A DNA stretch of 64,000 nt, taken from the NCBI RefSeq assembly GCF_021184025.1, contig NZ_CP036537.1:2666001-2730000 (forward strand), read 5' to 3'. Position 1 is the first letter of the stretch, and every line of letters begins with the position of its first letter. Below the pieces are notes generated by a model. The model saw nothing but the letters and a program-made list of their open reading frames with translations. It was not told the DNA's origin and did not search any database. The stretch comes from Rhodopseudomonas boonkerdii. GTDB taxonomy: Bacteria > Pseudomonadota > Alphaproteobacteria > Rhizobiales > Xanthobacteraceae. This document shows, one piece after another, positions 34,336-43,374 of this stretch. Position numbers and translations under genes: made by a program.

Positions 34336-36315
34336 CTATCTGTTCTGGGTATCGATCTCGAACAGCGAGAACGCCGTGACCGGATCGTTCTTCATCAAGT
34401 CCATAAATTCCATCACGGGCAGTTTCGCGCGGGGTGTGATTTTCACGGAGAGCGTGCCGTGTGGCCGTTCGATAAAAGCTGCGGCGGCGTCGGCGAGGCG
34501 GCTTGCGGCCGGATTGCTATTGCCGGCCGCACGCCCCTTCGTTCTGATCTCGTTCGCGAGGGCGGACCGCGCCTCTTCCGTCGAGACATTCTGTTTGCGG
34601 GCATATTGAGCGATTGAAAGATCGACGGCGCCAAGGTCGCGCGCGACGATTTCCACAGGGCCATATTCCATCTGCAGAGCCGCAACCATGGCCTGCTGCG
34701 GATTGGTGGTGAACAGATTGCGCGGGACGTTGTTGAGCGAGGTTTGTGCGTTGACGGCGAAGAGCTTGCCGATCTCGAACACGCCAGGCGTCAGCGTGAG
34801 CTTCTTCTCGCCCTCATTCCAGGCGAGGCCGATATCGATCGCTGCGGTGGCTTCATCGATGCCGGCATCGCGCAGCAGCGTGAATGGCTCGCCGTCCTTC
34901 TCCTCCAGCGGCCCCGTCATATTCAGCTTGAGATTGATCTTGCTCGGGATCGGTCCGACGAACTGACCCCAGCTCAGGCCGGCTTCGTGCAGCGTAATCA
35001 GCTTGCCGCTGCTCTTGTGCGGCACCACCATGTCCTTGAGCTCGATACCGTCAAGCGCTTTCAGCAGGCCGACGACGCTGTCGGCGGAAGGCGTCATGCC
35101 GGGCACGGTCATTTGCGATGTCTGCCGCATCAGGCCGGGGAAATCGAAGCCCTTGAGCGCGAAACGTCCGATTTTGAACGGGCCTTCCGTCGATTGGCCG
35201 TCCAGCCCCTCGACGGCGAATTCGCCGATCTTGCCGCGATCGAGATTGAAGCGCAGGGCCGCGAGCTTGATCGGACCATCAGGTGCCTGGACGGATAGGC
35301 CGAGTATCTCGGTATTGTCGATCTGGACACCTTCATAGACGGAAGCGACCGTGTTGATCACGGCGCGCGCCTTGGCGGGATCGACAGGCGTACCTGCTGC
35401 AGGGAGTACGGCAAGCAGCTCCTGCATCTTGAACTTGGACGGCTGGACCTTCATGTCGCCCATGCGGATGCCATCGATGCGGAAGGAGGGGCCGTTGTCC
35501 GATGTCAGCGTATAGGCGCCGGTGCTGATCTGTCCCTGAATGCGATAGAACTTCTCATCGCTCGCATGGGCGGGATCAAGCACCGTTGCCACCGCAGCGG
35601 CATCGAAGTCCTTTGCGGTGATGTCGGCGATTTCACCCGTCATCCGCACTTGTTTGTCGGCTTGTGCAACGGTCATCGCCACATTGACGCGGCCGGCATG
35701 GGATGTGGCGATCTTGCCATCCTTGATGTCGCGGATTGCCAGGTCTGAATAGACATAGTCCGTGCCGTTCGGCAGCGCTTTGCCGGTCGCTTTCACCGTG
35801 ACGGTGGGCGCCGTCATCGCACGTGCCGAGATGGCGGCGAATTGCGTCAGTCCGGCCCGGTACATGTCGAGCGGCGAGGCCAATCCGGCCTGTGCCGGCA
35901 AGCGCGTTGGGCCGGAATAATCGTCAATCTCGAAGCGGGGCGCGTTGACGGCGACGTCAAGACCCCCCGACGGCGCGATCGTGCCGCTGGCATCGATATC
36001 GGTGAGGACGATGTGATCAGCCGTGAAGGTGGTCGTGCTGCCGGATCCGACACCCGAAGCGCTAAAGCGGCCGACCTTGATGGCGGCCCGTTGCGGTGTC
36101 GTAAACTCCACGGCGATATCGGAGAGTGTGACCTGGCGCGTCCACAGGCTGAAGGCGAGGTCGCCATGCTTGGCCTGCGCGCCGGCGGCACGAATCTGCG
36201 CGAAGTTCGCTTCGATCTCGTTGGCAATCCGGTGCTTGATATAGGCTTCCGTGCTGAAATAGCCGCCAACAGCAGCAACAGCGGCCGCACCGAGGCCGAT
36301 GACGATTTTGGACAT
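34336..36315 (-). CDS. Large envelope protein with AsmA-like repeats
   Basis: 659 residues. The N-terminus has one hydrophobic helix (IVIGLGAAAVAAVGGYFS) and then a long beta-rich region made of imperfect repeats (LAFSLWTRQVTLSDIAVEF, YSDLAIRDIKDGKIATSHA, GPFKIGRFALKGFDFPGLMR, PFTLLRDAGIDEATAAIDIG). This resembles AsmA/DUF945-type proteins, anchored in the inner membrane with a periplasmic body that may act in lipid traffic. I cannot name the exact family. It is convergent with aspS and divergent from maeB. Confidence 0.7.
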   Translation of the reverse strand: MSKIVIGLGAAAVAAVGGYFSTEAYIKHRIANEIEANFAQIRAAGAQAKHGDLAFSLWTRQVTLSDIAVEFTTPQRAAIKVGRFSASGVGSGSTTTFTADHIVLTDIDASGTIAPSGGLDVAVNAPRFEIDDYSGPTRLPAQAGLASPLDMYRAGLTQFAAISARAMTAPTVTVKATGKALPNGTDYVYSDLAIRDIKDGKIATSHAGRVNVAMTVAQADKQVRMTGEIADITAKDFDAAAVATVLDPAHASDEKFYRIQGQISTGAYTLTSDNGPSFRIDGIRMGDMKVQPSKFKMQELLAVLPAAGTPVDPAKARAVINTVASVYEGVQIDNTEILGLSVQAPDGPIKLAALRFNLDRGKIGEFAVEGLDGQSTEGPFKIGRFALKGFDFPGLMRQTSQMTVPGMTPSADSVVGLLKALDGIELKDMVVPHKSSGKLITLHEAGLSWGQFVGPIPSKINLKLNMTGPLEEKDGEPFTLLRDAGIDEATAAIDIGLAWNEGEKKLTLTPGVFEIGKLFAVNAQTSLNNVPRNLFTTNPQQAMVAALQMEYGPVEIVARDLGAVDLSIAQYARKQNVSTEEARSALANEIRTKGRAAGNSNPAASRLADAAAAFIERPHGTLSVKITPRAKLPVMEFMDLMKNDPVTAFSLFEIDTQNR

Positions 36316-40241: not shown

Positions 40242-41153
40242 TTATTCCGGGACCGTCGTCACCACACTGCTGAGCGGACGCGTGCTCACCGTCGGCAGCT
40301 TGGCATCCTTGGCGAGCGCTTCGTCATAGGATGCAATCGTCTGCACCGGCGCTTTCGCGCGCATCAGCACGACCTTGTAGCCGCCTGCTTTCAGCCGGCG
40401 CAGCAGTTCCGGCAGCGCTTCGGCGGTGGGCTTCTGGAAGTCGTGCATCAGGATGATGCCCTTGCCGAGCCTGTCGAGCTTGGTCATTACATTGGTGATG
40501 ACCTGCTCGGATTTGCGGGTCTTGAAATCGAAACTGTCGATGTCGCAGGAGAAGATCGCCATGTTGCGCTCGCCGAGATAGGTGACGATTTCGGGCGGGT
40601 GCTGCAGGGCCGGCGCGCGGAAGAAGGGGGCGGGGGCGGCGCCCAGCGCCCATTTGACGGCGCTGAACCCCTTTTCGATCTCGTCCTTGCGCTGCTGCTC
40701 GGTGAGCTTCTTGCTGGTCAGCGCGATATGCGCCCAGGTGTGGCCGCCGATGGTGTGGCCGGCAGCGGCGACCTGCTTCAGAATCTCGGGATGATAAGTG
40801 GCGTGCTTGCCGATCGGGAAGAAGACGGCGCGGACGCATTGGTCGGCCAAAGCCTTCAGCACTGCCGGCGTCGTGGTGGGCCACGGGCCGTCGTCGAAGG
40901 TGAGGACCACTTCCTTGTCGCGCAGGAAGTCGAGCTGCTTGAAATGCTCGAAGCCGAAACCGGGGCCGCCGGTGGTGTCGATCTCCACTACGCGGCTGAC
41001 GCCGAGCGCGTCGGGATTGGCGCAAGCAGGCTTCGCCGCGGTGTTCGGAGCGGGCGCCGGTGCCGGAGCTGCAGCTTTCGGCGCCTGGGCCAGTGCCTGC
41101 ATCGCCCAGAGCGACATCGCGCTCGCCAAAATCACACCTGCCGCCTTGCGCAT
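40242..41153 (-). CDS. Secreted polysaccharide deacetylase (NodB fold)
   Basis: 303 residues. A signal peptide (MRKAAGVILASAMSLWAM, cut near ALA) and an Ala/Pro linker precede a carbohydrate esterase 4 domain. Its motifs are complete: LTFDDGPWPTT, GGHTWAHIAL (the metal-binding HxxxH), FFRAPAL and ILMHDFQKPT. It should remove acetyl groups from peptidoglycan or an exported polysaccharide. The ATG at 41153 fits the signal peptide; the frame continues 25 codons upstream. A TTGACA about 115 bases upstream could be its own -35 box, though no good -10 follows. A possible SOS promoter lies about 580 bases upstream. Confidence 0.9.
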   Translation of the reverse strand: MRKAAGVILASAMSLWAMQALAQAPKAAAPAPAPAPNTAAKPACANPDALGVSRVVEIDTTGGPGFGFEHFKQLDFLRDKEVVLTFDDGPWPTTTPAVLKALADQCVRAVFFPIGKHATYHPEILKQVAAAGHTIGGHTWAHIALTSKKLTEQQRKDEIEKGFSAVKWALGAAPAPFFRAPALQHPPEIVTYLGERNMAIFSCDIDSFDFKTRKSEQVITNVMTKLDRLGKGIILMHDFQKPTAEALPELLRRLKAGGYKVVLMRAKAPVQTIASYDEALAKDAKLPTVSTRPLSSVVTTVPE

Positions 41154-41321
41154 GACGTCCCCCGTGCAACGTTCCGGCCGAGAATAGGCTGGCGACAAGT
41201 CTAGCGTGATTTTCTGCGTTGGGGTCATGGGACGAGCCTTTTCCCCAGCGTGTTGGAATGGATGTGAATGTCAAACAGCCACGTCCTTCCCGAGATCATG
41301 AGGCCTCATTCTCGCGGCGCT

Positions 41322-41737
41322 TGCGCGTCCGAGGTGTGAGCAGGTCTCCCCTCGAAGACATGAGGGGAGGCGGCACGCCGCAAGGCGCGTGGGGGTGGGA
41401 CTGACGCGATCGGTTCGCACTGGATCGCCAGTGCTGGCCGGCCGCGCAACGCCTGACGGCGTGCCACCGCGGGACTTTTGGCTGGAGGACCGCTCTGTCG
41501 CACACCGGCACGTCCCTTACTCCTTGCCGCAGCAAGTTTCCGAGCCGCTGATCCCGACGGATTTCTCCGCCGTTCGCCTGTGCCGTCGCAGCCGACCTAT
41601 CGGCTCCCCCTCGTAATGGGGAGGGACGGTGACCCCCGGCCTCCCGAGTCCTGCTTGCGAGGCAGGCCGCGGGCTCCGCATCCTGTCCCGCTCAAAGAAC
41701 GCCTCATGAGAGCGCCCCCCGCGAACAAGACGGCTGG
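41322..41737 (-). ncRNA. Candidate structured transcript read leftward from the LexA-box promoter
   Basis: Hairpins seen directly: an 8-bp stem CTCCCCTC/GAGGGGAG (41346-41353 with 41362-41369); a 9-bp distant pairing GGCACGCCG/CGGCGTGCC (41372-41380 with 41457-41465) enclosing CACTGG/CCAGTG (41418-41423 with 41428-41433); CTCCCC/GGGGAG (41604-41609 with 41618-41623); and CCTGC/GCAGG (41650-41654 with 41662-41666). Nested stems suggest a folded RNA. A 54-codon leftward frame (MRSPRPASQAG...) exists but looks non-protein-like. The 3' end is not defined by a T-run. It may instead be a dispersed repeat or a long leader of the deacetylase gene. Confidence 0.35.
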
Positions 41738-41782
41738 GATATAGGGCAATGAGAGGAATATTGTCAAGAACAAAGTGAGAAC
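41738..41782 (-). promoter_or_regulatory. LexA (SOS) box overlapping a strong leftward sigma70-type promoter
   Basis: On the plus strand GAAC (41768-41771), seven bases, GAAC (41779-41782): the exact direct repeat bound by alphaproteobacterial LexA. Read leftward it is GTTC-N7-GTTC, and the second GTTC touches a perfect TTGACA. Seventeen bases on is CTATAT (or TATATC with an 18-base spacer). Repressor site and -35 box adjoin, the arrangement expected for an SOS-repressed promoter. Transcription would start near 41731 and go left. Confidence 0.6.
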
Positions 41783-41796
41783 ATTTTATCGCGACC

Positions 41797-41902
41797 GTAG
41801 GATGGGTAGAGCGGAGCGAAACCCATCAATCCCGTCGATGCCTCACGCTCCGCCGATGGGTTTCGCTCCAGCGCTGCCGCGCCTTCGCTCTACCCATCCT
41901 AC
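41797..41902. repeat. Dispersed inverted repeat, GTAGGATGGGTAGAGC type
   Basis: Outer arms GTAGGATGGGTAGAGCG and CGCTCTACCCATCCTAC are a near-perfect inverted repeat of about 17 bases. Inner arms GAGCGAAACCCATC and GATGGGTTTCGCTC also pair. It is a self-contained palindromic element between the SOS promoter and glyA, related in style to the GTAGGGCGGATG family. Confidence 0.8.
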
Positions 41903-42084
41903 GCGCCCGCGCAGCGATCTTGTTTTGCGATCGCCGCATGTTTGCCGGGCCGGCTAAATCTGGTCTCGCCCCGGCAAATCCTTGGACGAGGCGGCCAGAT
42001 ATGGTATCCCGACGCAGTTCCTGCCCACCACCCGAGACCGCTCGCGCTCCGCCATTCTGGCCGCGGCGGTGGAGATATGCCCTG

Positions 42085-43374
42085 ATGACCAGTTCGGCCC
42101 GTAACGCCTCGTTCTTCACCGCCTCGCTCACGCAGGCCGATCCGGAAATCGCAGCCGCGATCAAGGGGGAACTTGGCCGCCAGCGCCATGAGATCGAGCT
42201 GATCGCCTCGGAAAACATCGTCAGCCGCGCCGTGCTGGAGGCGCAGGGCTCGGTGATGACCAACAAATATGCCGAGGGCTATCCGGGCGCGCGCTACTAT
42301 GGCGGCTGCGAATTCGTCGATGTCGCCGAGAATCTCGCCATCGAGCGCGCCAAGCAGCTGTTCGGCGCCCAGTTCGCGAACGTCCAGCCGAATTCCGGCA
42401 GCCAGATGAACCAGGCCGTGTTCCTGGCGCTGCTGCAGCCGGGCGATACCTTCATGGGCCTCGACCTCGCGGCCGGCGGCCATCTGACGCACGGTTCGCC
42501 CGTCAACATGTCCGGCAAGTGGTTCAAGCCGGCGCATTACACCGTGCGCCAGGACGACCAGATCCTCGACATGGATGCCATCGCCAAACAGGCGGAAGAG
42601 GTGAAGCCGAAGCTGATCATCGCCGGCGGCTCCGCCTATTCGCGCGCCTGGGACTTCAAGCGTTTTCGCGAGATCGCCGACAGCGTCGGTGCCTATCTGC
42701 TCGTCGACATGGCCCACTTCGCCGGTCTCGTCGCCGGCGGCGTGCATGAATCGCCGGTGCCGCATGCGCATGTCACCACCACGACCACGCACAAGTCGCT
42801 GCGCGGCCCGCGCGGCGGCCTGATTCTCACCAATGACGAAGCGCTGCACAAGAAGCTGAACTCGGCGATCTTCCCGGGTCTGCAGGGCGGCCCCTTGATG
42901 CATGTGATCGCGGCCAAGGCGGTGGCCTTTAAGGAAGCGCTGCAGCCGGAGTTCAAGACCTACGCGGCCAACGTCGTCGCCAATGCCAAGGCGCTGGCCG
43001 AGACGCTGAAGTCGCAGGGTTTTGACATTGTTTCGGGCGGCACCGACAACCATCTGATGCTGGTGGACCTGCGGCCGAAGGGCCTCAAGGGCAATGTATC
43101 GGAGAAGGCGCTGGTTCGCGCTGGCCTGACCTGCAACAAGAACGGCGTGCCGTTCGATCCGGAAAAGCCGTGGGTCACCTCGGGCATCCGTCTCGGCACC
43201 CCCGCTGCGACCACCCGTGGCTTCGGCACCGAAGAGTTCAAGCAGGCCGGCGAGTTCATAGCCGAGGTGCTGAGCGCCGTGGCGCAGTCCGGCGACGGCA
43301 GTGCGCCGCTGGTCGAAGCGGCTGTTAAGGAAAAGGTGAAGGCGCTGACGGATCGTTTCCCGATCTATCAGTAA
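42085..43374 (+). CDS. glyA: Serine hydroxymethyltransferase
   Basis: 429 residues. The PLP enzyme converts serine and tetrahydrofolate to glycine and methylene-tetrahydrofolate, the main one-carbon source. Family signatures include [36 protein letters not shown], and the PLP lysine K237 in [14 protein letters not shown]. The chosen ATG has GGAG 10 bases upstream and gives the normal N-terminus; the frame stays open for 55 codons before it. It heads the run to nrdR and the riboflavin genes. Confidence 0.96.

Follow-up and report, generated by a model that had tools for sequence, protein, structure and literature searches.

The window (the whole stretch of 64,000 nucleotides analysed here) carries a candidate LexA box and an adjoining promoter on its minus strand. 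The box, GTTCTCACTTTGTTC (positions 41768-41782), has the form GTTC-N7-GTTC, which the consulted part of PMC8565304 gives as the LexA motif of Alphaproteobacteria. Read as ATGTTC-N6-TGTTC, it also fits the Caulobacter LexA consensus, (T/A)TGTTC(N6)TGTTC, as it appears in the consulted part of PMC13384398. The -35 hexamer TTGACA (41762-41767) touches the box directly, and the -10 region is CTATATC (41738-41744), as seen in aligned copies of the sequence. CTATAT (41744-41739), 17 bases from the -35, agrees with TATAAT at two of six positions, and the alternative register TATATC (41743-41738), with a spacer of 18 bases, at four of six. Neither register gives a strong -10, and a promoter scan of the window under stricter criteria reports nothing at the box-TTGACA site. 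The initial annotation had placed the box, TTGACA and CTATAT (41739-41744) at the right coordinates, in minus-strand reading and with the right 17-base spacing.

The nearest gene to the left is a polysaccharide deacetylase (open reading frame 40242-41228), whose start codon is likely at 41153, before a signal peptide. The measured distance from the -10 is ~585 bases, in agreement with the ~580 bases proposed initially. Immediately 5′ of the box, a REP-like double inverted repeat (CGTAGGATGGGTAGAGCGGAG...CTACCCATCCTACG) occupies 41788-41911, and its hairpin recurs at the same place in two other copies (L022 and L030) of the element described below.

The repeated element and its box

A 201-base query over the site, which contains the box, has at least 17 matches in the genome of the window (G000) among the matches listed. 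Among the matches listed, 20 of the 41 genomes searched contain it, all 18 genomes of the genus among them, and the loci analysed come from this list. The stretch that had been described as a gene-free region with a lone promoter is one copy of a dispersed non-coding repeat that includes the box and the promoter, and the idea of a single lone SOS transcript gives way to a repeat family. The predicted element covers ~41269-41782 on the minus strand (~500 bases, non-coding), and copies extend from the box to ~41306 or 41269. Four copies in G000 are 96-99% identical to the window copy and most others 71-92%. The copies are situated between different genes. Two internal modules, type A (the window copy) and type B, occur between common ends, and L035 has the common ends and box-TTGACA with a different interior. 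Nineteen duplicate loci are left out of the copy set, and one comparison of copies leaves out L019, L020, L029, L036, L110 and copies shorter than 560 bases.

A search of G000 with the 3′ end finds 19 places, each within ~600 bases of a known 5′ end, and the element is spread over ~20 places in this genome. Neither a transposase open reading frame in the element copies nor a larger autonomous version at the 19 3′-end places is seen. A larger autonomous version with a transposase is rejected, as all 3′ ends lie near known 5′ ends and the type C relatives are also ~500 bases long. These type C elements lie on contig C1 of G000 at 2134450 (L094), 3746351 (L118), 3934197 (L119) and 3899339 (L270); they have other interiors and carry the near-boxes ATTCCTATTTTGTTC or GTTCACGATTTGTGC, and three of the four have the common 3′ end. 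In L021-L037, L148 and L149, interiors are exchanged between types while ends and promoters are constant, which suggests gene conversion among copies.

Different upstream sequences all end at the box, which therefore marks the shared 5′ border of the element. In G000, ten of the 15 copies with a box have 24-155 bases of upstream repeat in common with another copy, in several different sets, indicating that those copies are not independent insertions of the bare element; no common upstream sequence is found for the other five. Besides the set with the REP-like hairpin (the window copy, L022 and L030), such repeats are found upstream of L021/L023, L025/L027/L028, L024 and L035, and some of the repeats resemble Br-REP2. 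Element and upstream repeats may move or recombine together.

The pattern GAACN7GAAC occurs twice in the window against 1.53 expected (the second match is at 34541-34555), and 157 times in the whole genome against 117 for the reversed pattern, moderately above the control. The perfect GTTC-N7-GTTC-TTGACA occurs 15 times in the 5.63 Mb of G000 and its reversed pattern not once, indicating that the contact between box and TTGACA is not due to chance. All 15 sites are element copies. In the 18 genomes of the genus, the strict pattern occurs at 62 sites in six genomes and the reversed pattern at none; the full check as element copies covers the 15 sites of G000. A chance box next to a chance promoter would suit the chance-level frequency of GAACN7GAAC alone in the window, but 62 sites against 0 control sites refute chance as an account of the conserved arrangement, and we give this reading a negligible probability.

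With upstream sequences lined up on the RNA body, 67 copies are scorable in the six genus genomes that have the strict box pattern. Class L bodies have a perfect box in 52 of 56 cases and a one-mismatch box in the other four, and class N bodies have a box in 0 of 10, in a set that is not fully blind, as two of the 56 (L123 and L144) entered via the box pattern and the query behind most others contained the box. This count leaves out L036, a scorable copy in neither class and without a box, and L234, which has no upstream DNA. Among the 49 distinct class L promoters, mean pairwise identity is 0.96 for the first half-site and 1.00 for the second, 0.65 for the inner seven bases and 0.34 for six flanking bases. 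In their -35, TTGA is invariant, and C and A are present in 46 and 48 of the 49, respectively. Because the half-sites are nearly invariant while the inner bases vary, the box is, as judged from sequence comparison, under constraint. The shared upstream repeats do not affect this argument, since it rests on half-sites versus inner bases. The fuller Caulobacter consensus is fitted by 23 of the 56 class L boxes, including that of the window copy.

The box might instead be a merely inherited repeat end, for example a transposase end or the site of another protein, that reads GTTC-N7-GTTC. It is the common 5′ edge of copies of common descent, some of which have upstream repeats, as this reading would have it. 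However, the half-sites stay while the inner bases change, also between orthologous copies, the boxless class N elements are repeats too, and the same fixed arrangement is found in Microvirga with a diverged body. We therefore consider an inherited end very unlikely.

Relatives without the box are common: class N copies have none, the strict pattern is absent from 12 of the 18 genus genomes, and none of the copies read in G164 and G252 carries a box. The family can thus do without SOS control. Two boxless relatives in G010 (L333 and L346) retain what looks like a box in decay or only partly formed; in one example, TTTTTTCCTATTGTTC precedes TTGACA. In a lexA+recA tree of 16 genomes, G011 is grouped with boxless genomes at 100% support, and the position of G000 is unsettled (50%). 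A single origin of the boxed genomes is rejected on the placement of G011, which does not fit one simple gain.

GTTC-N7-GTTC is present upstream of lexA at 17 of 17 loci and upstream of recA at 17 of 17 loci. These boxes read GAAC-N7-GAAC in gene direction, opposite to the element box, and the inner bases of the element box differ from theirs. The reversed orientation counts against a simple analogy with recA and lexA. In G000, GTTC-N7-GTTC is also located between an ImuA-like gene and a radical-SAM repair-type gene (rSAM_link_UDG, TIGR03916, above cut-off), and there it does read towards the radical-SAM gene. It adjoins a second ImuA-like gene as well; both ImuA matches are below cut-off. At L268 (G000, contig C1, 2789847-2789879), two GTTC-N7-GTTC boxes in opposite orientation are 3 bases apart; a DNA polymerase III alpha gene lies ~300 bases away, and an element copy is at a distance of 1.4 kb.

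The predicted RNA

The element is predicted to give a non-coding RNA of ~465 nt (41269-41733, minus strand), with the start placed from the conserved body and the end from the conserved GGCTGTTTGACA. The conserved 5′ domain (41643-41733, minus strand) comprises the helices P1, P2 with the palindrome CTCATGAG, and P3 with a CTCGCAA loop; it is matched by our RNA model R1 at 73.3 bits (G000, contig C1, 2707643-2707733). The 3′ domain has a hairpin CCCCTC...GAGGGG (41348-41367, minus strand), which is read directly and is found in most copies. A further 3′ hairpin, CTCGGACGCGCAAGCGCCGCGAG (41311-41333, minus strand), is common to the element types and is a possible terminator. The 3′ boundary motif GGCTGTTTGACA (41269-41280, minus strand) is found in part of the copies. 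TTGACA occurs at both ends of the predicted transcribed part, as the -35 (41762-41767) and within TTTGACA at the 3′ end (41269-41275), and the TTTGACA end is also found in several Microvirga copies. The paired TTGACA ends might be a trace of recombination or insertion.

R1 is built from 20 copies and has 28 pairs. Over 90 loci it gives 81 matches in 80 loci, and 20 of these matches are sequences from which the model was built; one of the two matches in L019 looks spurious and is retained in the covariation set. Of the 12 Microvirga copies tried, it matches seven, with E values of 0.0012-0.035, and each match lies 53-57 bases downstream of where the box of that copy starts. It has no match in the other five Microvirga copies, the type C elements L094 and L118, L035, or the stray loci L310 and L312. 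In the alignment of 74 distinct sequences, 92.1% of the cells are paired, and 24 of the 28 pairs have changes on both sides. Compensatory cells number 229 against 69 ± 6.6 in shuffled controls (0 of 500 as high), and slid structures score far lower, in an alignment that is fitted to the structure and so favours it. The strong compensatory changes in the 5′ domain, above controls, argue for a structured non-coding RNA.

For the whole predicted RNA, the folding energy is -232.1 kcal/mol (z -2.31), only mildly unusual, since three of 100 shuffles do as well. The stems vary strongly between copies. Rfam covariance models give only sub-threshold matches (E 0.68 or worse) in 41100-42200 of the window. 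In L094, L025, L035, L118 and L119, the only matches are a tRNA in L118 that lies outside the element and a sub-threshold one at that same place. A known Rfam family is rejected, with no plausible match for the window or these five further loci.

The element could encode a small protein rather than an RNA. A frame of ~120 amino acids, read by eye, is open in type B copies, and the longest sense open reading frame is above the shuffled mean in 76% of 80 copies (108 versus 83 amino acids). However, the window copy, of type A, has only shorter separate frames of 54 and 79 amino acids. Indels between copies are mostly of one base, and only 402 of 2559 gaps are a multiple of three (250 copy pairs, gaps counted once per pair). 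Frames and indel lengths tell against this reading, as does the covariation, and we reject a coding function as extremely improbable.

Gain, loss and neighbouring genes

A boxed element is present in the deacetylase gap of G013 and G015, where glyA flanks the gap opposite the deacetylase, and in that of G007, on the contig that carries the deacetylase start (C542). The three boxes each have different inner bases. The initial annotation had named absence of the box from orthologous gaps as evidence against its proposal; the box is kept in all three. The G009 contig breaks off within the element. No element is seen within 1.5 kb beside the deacetylase in the other 13 genomes of the genus, where orthology is by the deacetylase alone, not gene order. 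G005 has one 11-base match to the 3′-end motif beside the deacetylase.

At the junction of a relA-like and a thiolase-like gene (copy L021), boxed elements are present in G000, G009 and G013, with 770-877 bases between the matched gene segments. In G015 and G007, the gene order is the same, the distances are 165 and 127 bases, and the element is absent, suggesting that units are gained or lost whole. On the lexA+recA tree, loss in the G007-G015 pair would make the shorter account. In 13 further genomes, neither the element nor the thiolase-like segment follows the relA-like gene.

In G000, a boxed copy is located just upstream of ruvC (TIGR00228, above cut-off), on the same strand. Such copies, on the ruvC strand in G000 and relatives, are L026, L101, L231 and L220, and the stretch from the element to the ruvC start is kept in G013, G009 and G007 at 82-87%. 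Judging by this arrangement, the ruvC-side copy could double as an SOS promoter for ruvC. The initial annotation noted no DNA-repair gene within reach of the site; its lone-feature view is wrong, as another element copy precedes a DNA-repair gene. A stretch from an element copy to an amidase-like gene is also common to other genomes.

These neighbours raise the reading that the element is a portable SOS promoter, which puts downstream genes under LexA by read-through and whose RNA is a leader. The ruvC copy, with its stretch kept in three genomes, and the fact that some copies, that of the window included, face genes on their own strand would fit it. On the other hand, when 16 loci of G000 are passed through a simple gene caller, 12 have a downstream gene call, seven on the same strand and five opposed. 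This mixed orientation rejects a general role as operon leader, and the compensatory pairing and the 3′ hairpin favour an RNA product. A portable promoter is therefore unlikely, although less so than an inherited end.

A genome_contigs scan for box-TTGACA-NN-ATTCC finds 55 stretches, of which 34 are in four Nitrobacteraceae-type assemblies, one named Tardiphaga, and 19 in six species of Microvirga, a genus of a different family. The remaining two are in an alphaproteobacterium and a Hyphomonadaceae assembly, and the element body is not seen in either. Six of the 19 Microvirga hits are at contig ends and are unreadable onward; the other 13 have the same box and promoter and a diverged relative of the RNA body. 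The RNA domain alone is found in at least five of 297 genomes of the order, in four families, at E 0.001, a lower bound because the strict filters of this search would miss copies like those of Microvirga. G164 has eight matches and G252 at least 13, and the box is absent from the seven copies read in each.

Interpretation and comparison with known systems

On comparative grounds, we think it likely that LexA controls the promoter at this site and that this promoter belongs to one copy of a dispersed, non-coding element that specifies a structured RNA. The initial suggestion of an unrecognised SOS-regulated transcript thereby gains support, in the form of a repeat family, from the conservation of box and -35, the motif at lexA and recA, the orthologous gaps and the structured RNA body, all of which bear on it at the level of sequence. 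By occupying the GTTC-N7-GTTC box immediately upstream of the -35, LexA would keep RNA polymerase off the promoter. Upon DNA damage, RecA would trigger LexA self-cleavage, and ~15 promoters in G000 would fire together to give folded RNAs of ~465 nt.

LexA on the box could instead act as an activator, or the box as a dual site, as it lies upstream of the -35 without overlap. A site immediately upstream of the -35 is well placed for contact with polymerase, the -10 is weak, and LexA of Rhodobacter sphaeroides has dual activity, which counts for this reading. However, the -35 is a perfect TTGACA, and boxless relatives have similar promoters. We hold activation to be improbable, somewhat less so than an inherited end and more so than a portable promoter.

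Returning to a repressed promoter of a structured-RNA element, the scattered copies and their gain and loss point to a unit that is, or once was, mobile, and the conservation of structure suggests that selection acts on the RNA. Most likely, the element is a discrete repeat that is gained and lost, mobile or once mobile, and the RNA is its functional product, with expression timed to damage. A bolder version, which we put forward tentatively as somewhat less probable than its contrary, is that these are undescribed mobile, protein-free RNA elements under LexA in Nitrobacteraceae and Methylobacteriaceae, of which a dozen or more copies would fire on damage. In that case, the RNA would rank among the main products of the SOS response, acting in trans via its conserved loops or serving the spread of the element. 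No published description of the element is found in the literature searched, a scope outside which most subscription papers fall; Br-REP repeats and SOS-controlled ISCR elements come nearest among described systems.

If the reading of a LexA-controlled RNA element holds, the SOS response of Tardiphaga-like bacteria and Microvirga would include many copies of a large folded RNA, which would escape surveys that search behind LexA boxes for coding genes. As a dispersed non-coding unit tied to DNA damage, the element would be open to direct testing, with relatives that have and lack the box within the same genomes as natural controls for each other.

A close comparison is with the alphaproteobacterial LexA SOS promoters in the consulted parts of PMC8565304 and PMC13384398, whose motif is the one found before lexA and recA of these genomes. 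Unlike the LexA boxes of repair genes, the element box would drive a repeated non-coding element, sits on the -35 and is reversed relative to recA and lexA. Br-REP1 and Br-REP2 of Bradyrhizobium japonicum, in the part of PMC5082802 consulted, are likewise dispersed intergenic repeats in the same bacterial family, and a sequence like a Br-REP2 end (CCCCGGAATGA) lies upstream of four element copies (L024, L025, L027 and L028). They are described there as short palindromes, whereas the element is a ~500-base unit with its own promoter and not one palindrome; the main text of that paper, as consulted, contains no word beginning with 'LexA' or 'SOS'. ISCR, SOS-controlled mobile elements in the consulted part of PMC13393415, are likewise dispersed and under LexA, but they encode a transposase, and none is found in the present element. 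LhrC of Listeria, a multicopy sRNA family, likewise has several genomic copies of one RNA, as far as the consulted material on it goes. Compared with LhrC, the RNA predicted here differs in its length of ~465 nt, in its ~20 places in G000 and in its strongly variable stems.
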